Shown in pieces: positions 57,904-63,158 of a stretch of DNA of 64,000 bases. Below the pieces are notes generated by a model, which saw nothing but the letters and a program-made list of their open reading frames with translations, had not been told where the DNA came from and did not search any database. The stretch is taken from assembly GCF_008087665.1 (NCBI RefSeq), contig NZ_CP042912.1, positions 5,704,001 through 5,768,000 of the forward strand, written 5' to 3'. The position numbers were made by a program, and so were the translations under genes. This stretch comes from Mariniblastus fucicola. GTDB taxonomy: Bacteria; Planctomycetota; Planctomycetia; Pirellulales; Pirellulaceae. Each line of letters opens with the position of its first letter. Position 1 is the first letter of the stretch.

Positions 57904-60864
57904 TCATTCTTCGAGCTGCGTTTCGACATAGAAGTTTCGGTCGAGCTCAAACATTTCAATCTCATCAGCGAACTCAAACGACGCAGCGTCTCCGCTCAAC
58001 TCCAATGAAATCGTCTGCCCGTTGATAGCAGCTCGAGCCGGTATCTTGAGCCCGTCGACGGCCTTCTCAAGTCGATATTTCAGCGTCTTGCCGTTGATGC
58101 TGTATTTGAGCACCGGAATGTCGGTGCCGCGAAGATACTGATCGAAGACTTTGCTGAAATCGAAACCGGCTTGCTCGCTGAGATAGTCTTCAACCTGCTG
58201 TGTCGTTACGGTTTGATGCCAGAACGCTTTATTGAGGCCGCGTAGGATAGAACGCCATTTTTCGTCGTCGTTCACAATGTGCCGCATCATGTGAATCATG
58301 TTGCCGCCTTTGTAGTACATGTCGCCGGAACCCGAATTGTTGACGCCATAGACGCCGATGATGGGGCTTTCGTTTCTGACATTCCTGCGGCAGCCGATCA
58401 CATAGTCTTCGGCTTCTTGCTTCGTAAAGTGATATTCAACGAACAGGTTTTCGCTGTAGTTTGTGAAGCTCTCGTGGATCCACATGTCAGCGGTATCCTT
58501 CATCGACACGTTGTTGCCGAACCACTCGTGCCCGGACTCGTGAACGATAATGAAGTCAAACTTCAGGCCAACGCCTGTCGCACTGAGATCGCGTCCGCGG
58601 TAGCCATTTTTGAATCCGTTGCCATAGGTGACCGAGCTTTGATGCTCCATGCCCAAATACGGAACGACGACCAGTTTGTAGCTGTCCTCGTAGAAAGGAT
58701 ATTTGCCGAACCAGTGTTCGAACGCTTCGATTGTTCGCGGAGCTTCCTTGAAATGCTTCTCCGCCGTTTCGCGTTGATGCGCAAGCACCCAGTAGTCCAG
58801 ATCCAGCGTGCCAAACTCGCCGTCGTATTTGTCCTTGAAGTTCACATAGTTGCCGATGTTTACGTTCACGCCGTAGTTGTTGATGGGCTGGGTTACTGTC
58901 CACTGAAAAGTCTTCGTTTTGCCATCAACATCGTGATCGGTTTTCGTCAGACGCCCGTTGGAGACGGCTGTTAAGTCTTCGGGCACCGTGACGTTGATCT
59001 GCATCCCCGCATCGGGTTCGTCATAGCCATGGTCCTTGCACGGCCACCAAATACTGGCTCCGATTCCCTGACAAGACGTGGCGATAAAGTGCTTTCCCTT
59101 GTTGTCTTTCTGCCAGGAAAAACCGCCGCTCCACGGAGGATTCTTGCTGACGACAGGTGTGCCTTCGTAGAAGACCTGAATCTGATCGCTCGTTCCTTTC
59201 GCGATCGGCTTGCCGATTTCGATCAAGTACACGTTTCCATTTCGGGTAAAGCTCAACTCACCCGATTCATGCTCGACTTTCGTAATCTCAAGCGGTTCCT
59301 GCAGATCGATTTGCATCGTCGAACCTTCTTCGAGCACTTCGAAGCGGATGATGTTCGAGCCCTTGATCGTTCTTGCTTCCGGATCAACCTGAACTGACAA
59401 CTGGTAGTGCTTCAAGTCCCACCAGGCACGTTCTGGCGTGATCGAACCACGCAGGCGATCCTGCTGAGTGAACTTTTTACTTTCATCATCAACCCACGGA
59501 TCGGGAAGCCGCATAAAGAACTTGGTCAGCGAAGACTCCAGCGAGATTGCTTTCTCACGCCGCTCCTCGAACAGGTTCTTCGTCTCATGAGGATCCACTT
59601 TGAGATCAAACAACTGAGTCGATTTGTCTCCCTGCATGTGTTTGTGAATTCCCCCATTTCGACCGGTCTGGCCGTCGAAACATTTGATCAGTTTTTCATC
59701 GCCGACCACGCACCAGCGGTACAGCAACGATTTGGACGGATCATCAATGTCCGCGATATCGTGTGCAAAAATCTCACCGCAGAGAGCCTCCCGGTTGAGC
59801 GCCTCGCCACGAGCGACCGACATCAAGTCCAGCCCGGTCATCGCCTTGGGAACCTCAATCCCGGCCGCCTGGAGAATCGTCGGAGCCAGATCAATGCTGC
59901 TAACGAGGGTTTCCTGATCCATCACTGGCTCAATCGTTTCAGGCCAGCGGACCATGATAGGCGTGCGCACGCCACCTTCCGATGGCGACTGTTTGCTTCG
60001 AGGCGCAAATGGCTTGTTCCAATCCTTTGGCACGTTTGACTCTTGCGTGCGTTGGATCCAACCGTTGTCCGTGACGTAGATCACGATCGTGTTCTCACCG
60101 AGTCCTTTCGAATCGATATGGTCCACCAACTGGCCGCAGGTTTCATCGAACCATTCGCACATCGCGTAGTATTTCGCAAGAGACTCCGGGCGTCCTTCGG
60201 CGGTATATTTTTCCAACAAGCGCTTCGGTGGGTTGTGCGGCGTGTGTGGCAGAAACGGCGCATACCAAACGAAAAACGGCTTCTCCCCGGCGTCTTCAAT
60301 GAAGTCATAAACGGGCTGCAGTCCCTGACGGCCAATTTTCAATCCTTCGTCACCATGTCGGCCACCGCGCTTCCGATCGCCGTGTGTCATGCCGTGCGTA
60401 AAGCCTCCATCGGCAAAGGATCCTTCCCACCATTTGCCGGACTGAAAGCTGACGTAGCCTTTCGTAGCCAACAACTTCGGCAGCGTATCCAACGATTTAA
60501 TTTTCGCATTCAGTGCAGCGATTCTGGTTTCCCGATCCTCGCCGCCGATCGCCGGATCGTTTCCGGAAATGTGATGCTGAATGGGATACAACCCTGTGAT
60601 GATCGATGCCAGAGAAGGACGACAGAGGCTTGTCGGCACATACCCGCGAGTGAATGTCAGACTTTGTGCGGCCAGTTTGTCGAGGTTTGGTGTTTCGATA
60701 TCCGCGTGCCCCATGAACCCATAATCGGTCCAAGCCTGATCGTCAGAGATGATCAAAACGATATTGGGCGGCGATTCGGATTCGTCAGCTTGCAAAGAAG
60801 TCGTGAGCAGCAGGCAAAGCATGATGCCAGAGACCAGTTTGCCAGTTCGGGACAGAGATACCAT
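57904..60864 (-). CDS. Sulfatase fused to an M1-family aminopeptidase
   Basis: 986 residues from the ATG giving MVSLSRTGKL, preceded by AAAAGGAAC; a longer frame to 61011 lacks such support. A signal peptide covers ~1-26. Residues ~32-475 are a type I sulfatase: DD at 41-42, and the formylglycine site C81-R-P-S-L with ASIITG behind it (Leu replaces the usual Arg of CxPxR). Residues ~490-986 are an M1 metallopeptidase: LGMEHQSSVTYGNG, the zinc site HESGH at 775-779 with Glu798, and Tyr in MYYKGGNM. The reading frame is continuous. Likely a secreted enzyme acting on sulfated glycoproteins or glycopeptides; that is inference. Confidence 0.92.
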   Translation of the reverse strand: MVSLSRTGKLVSGIMLCLLLTTSLQADESESPPNIVLIISDDQAWTDYGFMGHADIETPNLDKLAAQSLTFTRGYVPTSLCRPSLASIITGLYPIQHHISGNDPAIGGEDRETRIAALNAKIKSLDTLPKLLATKGYVSFQSGKWWEGSFADGGFTHGMTHGDRKRGGRHGDEGLKIGRQGLQPVYDFIEDAGEKPFFVWYAPFLPHTPHNPPKRLLEKYTAEGRPESLAKYYAMCEWFDETCGQLVDHIDSKGLGENTIVIYVTDNGWIQRTQESNVPKDWNKPFAPRSKQSPSEGGVRTPIMVRWPETIEPVMDQETLVSSIDLAPTILQAAGIEVPKAMTGLDLMSVARGEALNREALCGEIFAHDIADIDDPSKSLLYRWCVVGDEKLIKCFDGQTGRNGGIHKHMQGDKSTQLFDLKVDPHETKNLFEERREKAISLESSLTKFFMRLPDPWVDDESKKFTQQDRLRGSITPERAWWDLKHYQLSVQVDPEARTIKGSNIIRFEVLEEGSTMQIDLQEPLEITKVEHESGELSFTRNGNVYLIEIGKPIAKGTSDQIQVFYEGTPVVSKNPPWSGGFSWQKDNKGKHFIATSCQGIGASIWWPCKDHGYDEPDAGMQINVTVPEDLTAVSNGRLTKTDHDVDGKTKTFQWTVTQPINNYGVNVNIGNYVNFKDKYDGEFGTLDLDYWVLAHQRETAEKHFKEAPRTIEAFEHWFGKYPFYEDSYKLVVVPYLGMEHQSSVTYGNGFKNGYRGRDLSATGVGLKFDFIIVHESGHEWFGNNVSMKDTADMWIHESFTNYSENLFVEYHFTKQEAEDYVIGCRRNVRNESPIIGVYGVNNSGSGDMYYKGGNMIHMMRHIVNDDEKWRSILRGLNKAFWHQTVTTQQVEDYLSEQAGFDFSKVFDQYLRGTDIPVLKYSINGKTLKYRLEKAVDGLKIPARAAINGQTISLELSGDAASFEFADEIEMFELDRNFYVETQLEE

Positions 60865-61059: not shown

Positions 61060-61725
61060 TTACAGGCCCAGTTTCCGCCCAACGCACTCGAACAGAAACT
61101 CATACACCTCGATGTGTCGTCGCGACGCAAAAACGTCACGGCCCCAGGTATACAATCCGTGTTTGCGAATCAGAAAACCATGCGAGATCTTCTCGGGCTG
61201 CGACTCAATCATCGCTTGCACTTCCCTGGCCAGCGACGGGATGTCCTGAGTGTTGTCGAAGATCGGCACCCAATGCTCCGTCTCGTGCGTCGCAGTCCCC
61301 TCCAACCCTTTGAGCATCTCAAAACCTTCGATCTCGAATCCACCCTGGTCATAAAAGTGATCCGAAAGCAAAGTGCCCCAGACGCTGTGCGTGTGCAAAA
61401 TTGAACCGGCACTAACAGGTTCTGCAGCCAGAACCACGTGCAGCATCGTTTCCGCCGAAGACTTGAGCTGGTCGGCCTGCGTGGGGCATCCTTCTTGATC
61501 CAGACGTACAAAATCGCCTCGTTTCAGCCGACCTTTGTCCTTGCCGCTGGCGGTAACAATCAGTTCTACCGAATCACCAGGAATCACAACGCTGTAGTTG
61601 CTGCTGGTTCCAACCGACCAGCCTCGGGAATGAAACAGCCGCCCACACTCTCGCAGCTGATCGATTTGATCTTCAAAGCCAGCCAACGGATGGCCGACCG
61701 GAAAGGATTCTGCCACTTCGCTCAT
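61060..61725 (-). CDS. mtnB: Methylthioribulose-1-phosphate dehydratase
   Basis: A 221-residue class II aldolase-fold enzyme from the ATG giving MSEVAESFPVGH. GWSVGTSSNYSV, the metal-binding HTHSVWG and the C-terminal HGFLIRKHGLYTWGRD are the MtnB signatures. It acts in methionine salvage on 5-methylthioribulose-1-phosphate. The start overlaps the tatC stop (ATGA, 61722-61725), so the two are translationally coupled. No other salvage gene is in the window. Confidence 0.9.
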   Translation of the reverse strand: MSEVAESFPVGHPLAGFEDQIDQLRECGRLFHSRGWSVGTSSNYSVVIPGDSVELIVTASGKDKGRLKRGDFVRLDQEGCPTQADQLKSSAETMLHVVLAAEPVSAGSILHTHSVWGTLLSDHFYDQGGFEIEGFEMLKGLEGTATHETEHWVPIFDNTQDIPSLAREVQAMIESQPEKISHGFLIRKHGLYTWGRDVFASRRHIEVYEFLFECVGRKLGL

Positions 61726-63158
61726 ACCGTCGCCTCGTCGAATGGATTGTCGCTCGTCGGAGCCGGCATCCACTTGCACATCCCGATGCCGAGGAAATAC
61801 AGCAGCGTCAACGGCGCCGCCATCAGCACCATACTGATCGGATCCGCAGGCGTTAACAGCATCGAAAGCACACTGATCGCCATGACGGCAATCCGCCATT
61901 TCTCAATGTAAGCTTCCACACTGATCAATCCGATTCGGTTGACAAACAGCATCACCAACGGCAACTGGAACGCGACTCCAAATCCCAACGGCAGGAACAT
62001 CACAAAGCTTAGCCAATCATTGATTCGCATTTGCGGTGCGATGCCCATCGCTTTGTTGAACGAGAACAAAAAGTCCAGCACTGGAGCAAACACAAAGAAG
62101 AACGCCAGGCAAACGCCAGCGAAAAACAGCGCCAAACTCACTGGCAGGAAAATGTAGACGTATTTTTGCTCGTGAGGGTAAAGGCCTGCGGCGACAAACG
62201 TCCACAGAAACCAGATGATCGCCGGCAACGCGACCAACAAGCCCGTGATCAAACCCGCCTTGAGCCAAATCAGGAAACCGTCGGTCGGCGCCAGAGACTG
62301 AGGCTCGTTGTTGAGCGGCACCCACATCGTCAGCTCTCCTAGAGCACGTTTGAGTGGCGGCAACTGGTTTTGAAACAGGCTATGCACGAGTGCCCGATTG
62401 AGCTGACGATTGGCAGCTTCGTCTTTCGAGTTCTCCCGCAAGTAAGTCTTCATTCTCGCCAACGGTTTTTCGACAGGCTTGGAGAACATCCGAGCCAGCA
62501 ATCCCTGATCCGGTTCCGCCAGCTGTTCCGAAAACGCAGCATCGGAATGCAGATCCTTACCGGCCACAACATTGAATGCGTCGACCAACAGCCCAACGTC
62601 CGCGCCGTTGACCTCTGACTTTTTCGCGAGGTCGGCGATCTTGATCTGCGTCGCTTTGGGAATCCGGCTCCAGACTGCCTTAAGCTGCGCCGCGTCACTA
62701 TTGGCGTCCGCTGTCTGATTGGCCAAGCGCCCGGACAGCTCCTTCAGCCTCTCGCGGTCAAAGTCGACGGCGGAAAACAGATAGGGATTCAGTTCGACTT
62801 TTTCACCGATGTCAGGACTGATCGATTGCAACAGCTTGAGAATCTCAACCGGGTCGACCAAACCTTTTTGCGGCACATATCGGGACTCGTCCATCCACGG
62901 AGCAAGATCCGGATCGATGTAGCCCTGCTCACTGACCATCTGGTCTTTGGCTTCGACCAGCTCATAATTGTCCAACGCTTTGCGAAGCGGAACTTTAAGC
63001 TGCTTGACGACGTTTTCGGCAAAATAGAAGCCGATACAGCATCCAATCGCCAGAGCGATAAGGCATTTGACCAACACCCAACGCAGCTCTTCGAGATGCT
63101 GCCCAAAGCTCATCCGGCTTTCTTCAAAAAGGTCGTCGTCGCTGTTGCGGAAACTCAT
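61722..63158 (-). CDS. tatC: Twin-arginine translocase subunit TatC with large insertion
   Basis: A 478-residue protein, nearly twice the usual ~250. The N-terminus MSFGQHLEELRWVLVKCLIALAIG is the classic TatC start. A hydrophilic insertion of ~230 residues follows the first membrane helix (~45-285). The remaining helices are typical (GLLVALPAIIWFLWTFVAAGLYPHEQKY; FAPVLDFLFSFNKAMG; MRINDWLSFVMFLPLGFGVAFQLP). It is the receptor for folded proteins with twin-Arg signal peptides. TatA/B are not in the window. Confidence 0.92.
   Translation of the reverse strand: MSFRNSDDDLFEESRMSFGQHLEELRWVLVKCLIALAIGCCIGFYFAENVVKQLKVPLRKALDNYELVEAKDQMVSEQGYIDPDLAPWMDESRYVPQKGLVDPVEILKLLQSISPDIGEKVELNPYLFSAVDFDRERLKELSGRLANQTADANSDAAQLKAVWSRIPKATQIKIADLAKKSEVNGADVGLLVDAFNVVAGKDLHSDAAFSEQLAEPDQGLLARMFSKPVEKPLARMKTYLRENSKDEAANRQLNRALVHSLFQNQLPPLKRALGELTMWVPLNNEPQSLAPTDGFLIWLKAGLITGLLVALPAIIWFLWTFVAAGLYPHEQKYVYIFLPVSLALFFAGVCLAFFFVFAPVLDFLFSFNKAMGIAPQMRINDWLSFVMFLPLGFGVAFQLPLVMLFVNRIGLISVEAYIEKWRIAVMAISVLSMLLTPADPISMVLMAAPLTLLYFLGIGMCKWMPAPTSDNPFDEATV

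Follow-up and report, generated by a model that had tools for sequence, protein, structure and literature searches.

Sulfatases and M1 family aminopeptidases are normally products of separate genes, and an open reading frame (ORF) that contains both raises two questions, namely, whether the fusion is genuine and what a protein of this kind might do. Such an ORF is present on the minus strand of the 64,000-nucleotide stretch of the Mariniblastus fucicola genome analyzed here (the window).

Architecture, conservation and origin of the fusion

The ORF extends from position 60864 to position 57904 of the window on the minus strand, and its 986 codons encode a sulfatase half, an M1 half and a beta tail. 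The host genome is a single contig of 6,570,840 bases. The domain layout is as follows:

57904..60864, minus strand: fusion ORF, 986 aa, with the ATG at 60864 and the stop at 57904-57906
60787..60864, minus strand: apparent signal peptide, residues 1-26, identified by inspection (the second fusion, L043, is laid out alike)
59857..60768, minus strand: Sulfatase domain, PF00884, residues 33-336 (Pfam, E 6.4e-46)
59542..59979, minus strand: SGSH_C domain, PF16347, residues 296-441 (Pfam, E 2.7e-17)
59413..59541, minus strand: junction, residues 442-484, delimited by sequence comparison
58879..59412, minus strand: Peptidase_M1_N domain, PF17900, residues 485-662 (Pfam, E 9.1e-15; fold matches)
58135..58746, minus strand: Peptidase_M1 catalytic domain, PF01433, residues 707-910 (Pfam, E 1.6e-17; fold matches)
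57907..58134, minus strand: C-terminal part, residues 911-986, predicted by the model to consist mainly of beta strands, without helical domain IV

All four Pfam domains exceed their own curated cut-offs and are far beyond chance, so that the original prediction of a sulfatase and an M1 peptidase in one 986-residue frame is borne out by the ORF and the Pfam matches; the description of the protein as exported agrees with the signal peptide that is apparent on inspection. In most of the standalone M1 proteins, similarity to the fusion begins at about residue 459-470.

A second fusion is found in an uncultured member of the Pirellulaceae (L043, CALLUY010000212.1), where both halves again belong to one continuous ORF. 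The contig L043 and the genome G419 are one assembly, so that there are two fusion genomes in all, the host and L043/G419. The G419 fusion, from an assembly that is only 84% complete, is 84% identical to the query over residues 2-983, and the gene order in L043 is the same as in the window (PMI-like, TatC-like, class II aldolase-like, fusion, HAD-like and sigma; names assigned by inspection). The fusion is not a junction error because a second genome, assembled separately, carries it at this locus too, likewise in frame, which upholds the reading frame through the junction. Thus, neither of the two objections anticipated in the original prediction, an error at the junction or a copy unique to this genome, applies. 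The possibility that a sequencing or assembly error joined two adjacent genes, in favor of which nothing was found, is ruled out by the same fusion, frame and neighbors in L043 at 84% identity and retains practically no credibility.

The fusion is conserved but rare. A search of 28 genomes of the genus detects it in two; standalone M1 genes are present in 20 (60-75% identity; their ORFs of 553-638 aa could not accommodate both halves), and six of the 28 contain no M1 match at E <= 1e-60. In a genome scan with one genome per species, 461 stretches encode relatives, and among the best 80 of these 461, which were examined, only L043 is fused and 78 contain an unfused M1. The 30 closest M1 rows from a search of 241 genomes of the family comprise two fusions (G000 and G419) and 28 unfused ORFs, with mostly no more than three candidates scored per genome, so that a more distant fusion could be missed. 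A search of the class with the M1 half yields matches at E <= 1e-20 in 81 of the 397 genomes, and the 30 loci retrieved, one of which is the window's own copy, contain no further fusion. These genome comparisons confirm that the two halves are normally encoded separately, and the idea of a widespread architecture was rejected given that only two fusion genomes are represented among the best 80 loci and the 30 closest M1 rows. A search of the two fusion genomes (G419 being 84% complete) detected no other close copy of the M1 half. Three scans of viral contigs detected no relatives of the fusion; a later pattern scan of such contigs identified one distant sulfatase, L346.

In a tree of 108 M1 rows built with a quick method, the fused pair lies inside a fully supported planctomycete clade, with Bacteroidota as the wider relatives, and groups with the unfused M1 proteins of G423 and G404 from the same genus; the support for this grouping is 87, under the 95 mark, so that the placement is not strongly supported. 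In the tree of 48 sulfatase rows, the fused pair is the sister of a standalone gene of G473 (99/95), apart from the other genes of the same genus in the tree. The two halves are separate genes in G473 and are located on different contigs. Additionally, 15 loci were fetched around the aldolase-like gene in other genomes of the genus. One of these, L277 (G412), contains the window's pcm, hyp and sigma genes beside the aldolase-like gene, with neither half of the fusion nor the HAD-like gene between sigma and aldolase, and looks like the empty site of the fusion. The other 14 loci lack the sigma block; three of these have weak sulfatase matches (26-38%) nearby. A different sulfatase (28%) is encoded between pcm and hyp in L277. 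Given this empty-like site, the two trees and the separate genes of G473, the halves seem to have been joined and placed at this locus in the lineage of the two species that carry the fusion. It would have arisen from an M1 gene of the genus and a paralog of the sulfatase family, without the signal peptide of the M1 protein itself, so that one signal would export both halves.

Active sites and folds of the two halves

The M1 half contains the following motifs:

58642..58653, minus strand: G738-M-E-H741 in the place of the GxMEN exopeptidase motif, invariant in 108/108 aligned rows
58528..58542, minus strand: H775-E-S-G-H779, the HExxH zinc site (ORF translation and alignment)
58471..58473, minus strand: E798, third zinc ligand, 18 residues past H779 (ORF translation and alignment)
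58315..58317, minus strand: Y850, the likely catalytic Tyr, which is Tyr in 107/108 rows and X in one

The pattern HExxH-x18-E of peptidase family M1 is intact, with H775, E776, H779 and E798 invariant in all 108 rows, so that the site is complete, as originally predicted. The motif in the place of GxMEN retains Glu740 and has His instead of Asn in 108/108 rows. Both the N-terminal and the catalytic domains of the M1 fold are recovered by Pfam and by fold matches: a fold search identifies M1dr with Z 31.7 (412 aligned residues, 19% identity), LTA4H with Z 30.8, effectively tied with it, and IRAP with Z 30.1 over 488 residues, and a sequence search likewise ranks M1dr of Deinococcus and LTA4 hydrolase nearest among solved structures. 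In the model, the chain ends after the beta region, and there is no helical domain IV of the kind that ERAP-type enzymes possess. The M1 half is likely an active aminopeptidase. M1 aminopeptidases are exopeptidases that trim free N-termini and do not open glycoprotein backbones.

The sulfatase half differs from the canonical enzymes at two positions:

60610..60624, minus strand: C81-R-P-S-L85, formylglycine-type signature with Leu for Arg (alignment)
60421..60438, minus strand: G143-K-W-W-E-G148, with Trp146 for the usual His (alignment)

By fold and by the PF00884 match, this half resembles the formylglycine-dependent S1 sulfatases. A fold search identifies S1 sulfatases, with the S1_25 module of Formosa FA22250 at the top (Z 35.3), and Foldseek ranks the S1_16 enzyme 9fo1 first; the model of this half, built alone, is only fair (mean pLDDT 71.3, pTM 0.80). 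The full-length model did not succeed for the sulfatase half, for which the alignment provided in effect two rows (three unfused sulfatase rows, whose invariant columns are all in the M1 half, were apparently aligned to M1 columns), so that this model gives no domain arrangement.

The original prediction of a sulfatase with a formylglycine Cys holds with respect to Cys81, which is present, and does not hold with respect to the canonical signature that it implies: C-R-P-S-L lacks the Arg of C/S-x-P/A-x-R. The clade was analyzed in an alignment of 48 rows, the fusion protein and 47 relatives whose score against its first 455 residues is 300 bits or more; long ORFs were the main reason for fetching 20 of these regions. 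In 48/48 rows, Leu occupies the place of the Arg and Trp146 that of the His after GKW, the equivalent of AtsA His115. Cys81, Arg82, Leu85, Lys144, Trp146 and Glu147 are all invariant, and Arg82 is followed by P in 42 rows, S in three and A in three. The remainder of the active site is conserved as well: C81, K144, H207, H210, D266, N267 and K291 are retained in 48/48 rows, and D41 and D42 in 47, the remaining row having a gap from a truncated sequence. Thus, the calcium ligands and the catalytic lysines and His (D41, D42, D266, N267, K144, H207/H210 and K291) are in place; these residues correspond to D13, D14, K113, H211, D317, N318 and K375 of AtsA. The motifs CRPSL and GKWWEG are also present in 14/14 further loci from a phylum-wide search, identified by motif, so that both replacements occur in all 62 clade members examined (48 aligned and 14 by motif, the fusion included).

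Among the 57 other sulfatase ORFs of the host genome that score above 60 bits, 56 have the Arg, and the only one with Leu is the 47% paralog; Arg is found at the +1 place in two of the 57. The His after GKW is present in 33 of the 57 and is a weaker criterion than the Arg. In a published survey of sulfatases, the Arg is conserved in 99% of 4058 sequences and the His of GKWH in 81%, and nine sequences, from planctomycetes or Lentisphaerae, that have Ile or Leu instead of Arg55 are described as ones that "may be inactive" (PMC5066984). Beyond PMC5066984, searches of an open-access library brought up no description of the CRPSL clade. With the sulfatase half as the query, 39 of the 294 genomes of the phylum match at E <= 1e-70; with the whole query, 223 of the 241 genomes of the family match at E <= 1e-80 by either half, not necessarily all with CRPSL proteins, and among the matches listed it is mostly the sulfatase half that is hit.

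Sulfatase activity cannot be assumed because the replacements of Arg by Leu and of the GKWH His by Trp are found in every clade member examined. Function rather than decay is suggested because the clade is broad and the other active-site residues are kept; the retained Cys, calcium ligands and lysines argue against plain decay of this half. Hydrolysis of a sulfate ester by the sulfatase-fold half is moderately likely.

With regard to maturation, the Arg of the sulfatase signature matters for recognition by the formylglycine-generating enzyme. The host genome contains three PF03781 matches, and in all three, a C-x4-C pair, the pair expected of this enzyme, is absent within 45 residues of the RGG/KGG motif; no match to the model of the anaerobic maturase reached the cut-off in the same genome. 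Of six further loci from the genus, the two that are readable by the same motif also lack the cysteine pair. With no cysteine-pair enzyme recognized, formylglycine formation is putative for all sulfatases of this genome, the fusion included.

Purifying selection acts on both halves. When the two fusions are compared, the Nei-Gojobori ratio is 0.052 over residues 30-440, 0.060 over residues 485-986 and 0.092 over junction residues 441-484; these values are rough because dS is 1.5 to 2.0, near saturation.

Gene context and possible functions

The neighbors of the fusion gene encode, by inspection, a HAD-type hydrolase, a class II aldolase-like protein and TatC, and no polysaccharide-utilization locus is evident around the gene in the window. 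The standalone M1 genes share no neighborhood across the 15 loci compared; among close relatives, some neighbors are common to groups of two to four. In three Bacteroidales MAGs that form one clade of the M1 tree (L079, L089 and L103), a gene for a canonical sulfatase (CSPTR, GKWH) lies 3' of the M1 gene on the same strand, with the first Met about 580, 6 and 50 bases, respectively, past the end of the M1 frame. Counted as a single independent case in 78 unfused M1 loci, many of which have short flanks, this adjacency hints weakly at a shared pathway. In G106 (L014), a sulfatase ORF adjoins the M1 gene on the opposite strand. Weak sulfatase matches (24-33%) located about 2 to 5 kb from the M1 gene in L175, L180, L183 and L184 are taken as the background of sulfatase-rich genomes.

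Sulfatase domains are combined with other partners as well. PF00884 matches 69 stretches of the host genome, of which three fall below the cut-off and some belong to the same protein; 20 of its 58 sulfatase ORFs, the fusion included, are at least 600 aa long, measured from stop to stop and in some cases cut by the fetched stretch. Ten of the long ORFs were analyzed with Pfam: two have an esterase-type partner, one PQQ, one a 3-keto-disaccharide hydrolase, and six no second domain. In 20 regions of the sulfatase clade from other Pirellulaceae genomes, mostly picked for long frames, so that they provide no rate of fusion, two sulfatase domains are found in 12, an esterase-like domain in three (one by Pfam, two by likeness), a 3-keto-disaccharide hydrolase domain in one and an N-terminal part without a Pfam match in one, and three are unfused; Pfam was run on eight of the 17 long regions and one of the three unfused ones.

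The reading moderately favored here is that two hydrolase domains otherwise made from separate genes are tethered in one exported polypeptide. One would be a sulfatase-fold domain of the S1 type, from a planctomycete clade whose active site is putatively rewired (CRPSL / GKWWEG), and the other an M1 zinc aminopeptidase without helical domain IV, from a clade that also includes Bacteroidota. The fusion protein would work in the periplasm or outside the cell, where the M1 half would remove N-terminal residues of peptides and the sulfatase-fold half would hydrolyze a sulfate (or related) ester, so that two scavenging steps would be held together on one chain.

Several alternatives have to be weighed against this reading. 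A real, if lesser, possibility is that the tether has no functional meaning, such that enzymes with unrelated substrates share a transcript and a signal peptide, as in many planctomycete sulfatases. The long sulfatase ORFs (20/58) with their varied partners in the host genome, the joining of the same sulfatase clade to other partners elsewhere, the sulfatase gene fusions of other planctomycetes (PMC4807772) and the lack of a common M1 neighborhood across 15 loci are all compatible with this possibility; however, the frame and the constraint on both halves have been kept despite near-saturated synonymous sites, and neither fusion genome yielded a second close M1 copy (with G419 84% complete). 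It is rather unlikely that the sulfatase-fold half no longer catalyzes the sulfatase reaction and instead acts as a scaffold or binding module, e.g., for sulfated glycans, that brings the M1 half to its target: some loss of active-site residues would then be expected, but Cys81, K144, D266, N267 and K291 persist in 48/48 rows and D41/D42 in 47, and purifying selection is about equally strong on the two halves. What points to such a module is the Trp in place of the GKWH His, the role of the missing Arg in recognition by the formylglycine-generating enzyme, and the three PF03781 matches without the expected cysteine pair, which apply to all sulfatases of the genome. The replacement of the 99%-conserved Arg by Leu, in sequences that "may be inactive" (PMC5066984), points the same way.

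The original prediction further envisaged an enzyme with two activities on the sulfated glycoproteins of algae or mucins, with desulfation followed by peptide trimming. This appears decidedly improbable, given that no polysaccharide locus is evident around the gene, that the active site differs from that of a standard sulfatase, and that M1 enzymes are exopeptidases, even though the host genome is rich in sulfatases, M1 and canonical sulfatase genes are neighbors in one Bacteroidales clade, and the type species of Mariniblastus is called macroalgae-associated in the title of a cited work. A more speculative proposal, itself unlikely, is that the CRPSL/GKWWEG proteins are rewired hydrolases found across planctomycetes, with the Arg moved from +4 to +1 or with a chemistry other than standard formylglycine desulfation, and that one of them became tied to an aminopeptidase for action on a single substrate, such as sulfated or esterified (glyco)peptides.

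Planctomycetes encode dozens of sulfatases without known substrates, and domain fusions provide one of the rare hints as to which enzymes cooperate. For the tethered hydrolases favored above, the peptidase suggests that the target bears peptide, a possibility that a view centered on polysaccharides would not raise. A group that has been dismissed becomes testable through a conserved clade that lacks the "essential" Arg; should this clade prove active, a widespread planctomycete clade (39 of 294 genomes of the phylum) is overlooked by the sequence rule used for counting sulfatases.

Comparison with known systems

Sulfatase gene fusions have already been reported as common in planctomycetes, namely, the Porphyra isolates P1 and P2 (PMC4807772). 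The multi-domain sulfatases of these isolates likewise combine a sulfatase domain and another enzyme domain in one gene; in contrast to the present fusion, the main text of that paper mentions no peptidase partner, nor does the word "peptidase" occur in it, and only sulfatases with C/S-x-P-x-R were counted, a site that the CRPSL clade lacks (PMC4807772). Searches of an open-access library brought up no paper that deals, by title or the beginning of the abstract, with a fusion of a sulfatase and a peptidase. Thus, sulfatase fusion is a known kind of architecture, and what appears to be new is the peptidase partner.

The nine Arg55-less sequences of SulfAtlas resemble the clade described here in having Leu or Ile at the same place and in their planctomycete or Lentisphaerae origin; the present clade differs in that Leu is broadly fixed and the other active-site residues are retained (PMC5066984). 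M1dr of Deinococcus radiodurans (PDB 6a8z, 6iff), the closest solved M1 protein by both sequence and fold, is a standalone, shorter, two-domain enzyme, whereas the M1 half additionally contains the C-terminal beta region and is fused to the sulfatase. The match of the sulfatase half with the highest Z, the S1_25 module of FA22250 from Formosa agariphila (PDB 6hr5; Z 35.3, rmsd 2.7, 346 aligned residues), is described in the title of the entry as the sulfatase module of a rhamnosidase, i.e., a natural sulfatase fusion; its partner, however, is a glycoside hydrolase rather than a peptidase, and at the low identity of 24% it does not belong to the same subfamily as the sulfatase half.

Sulfatase maturation in the Mariniblastus fucicola genome

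The sulfatase cysteine is present in 58 ORFs of this genome. None of its three PF03781 matches (L271–L273) contains the C-x4-C pair, which we take to be expected of a formylglycine-generating enzyme, and a search of the same genome for the anaerobic maturase yielded no matches at the cut-off. Sulfatase maturation in M. fucicola may involve an enzyme that is as yet unrecognised or that was overlooked by the search.

Start codon of the aldolase-like neighbour

One of the genes adjacent to the sulfatase–M1 aminopeptidase fusion overlaps, at its start, the TatC-like ORF:

61060–61899 of the window, minus strand, class II aldolase-like ORF

Because the alignment with most relatives from the genus begins only at about residue 53–68, the true start probably lies downstream of that of this ORF.

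Relatives of the two halves of the fusion

The GMEHQ-type M1 peptidases, with GMEH in place of GxMEN, are also encoded in Bacteroidota. In three metagenome-assembled genomes of one Bacteroidales clade (L079, L089 and L103), a canonical sulfatase gene follows the M1 gene on the same strand within 0.6 kb, and in Flavobacterium (L061 and L062), the M1 gene occurs as a tandem pair.

The CRPSL clade of sulfatase-fold proteins combines loss of the signature arginine with tryptophan for the histidine of GKWH. These two changes may be separable, given that another sulfatase ORF of M. fucicola (L257) aligns a tryptophan with this histidine, yet retains the normal arginine. In other Pirellulaceae genomes (L152–L167 and L171), the fusion partner of CRPSL clade members is a second sulfatase, an esterase domain or a 3-keto-disaccharide hydrolase domain.
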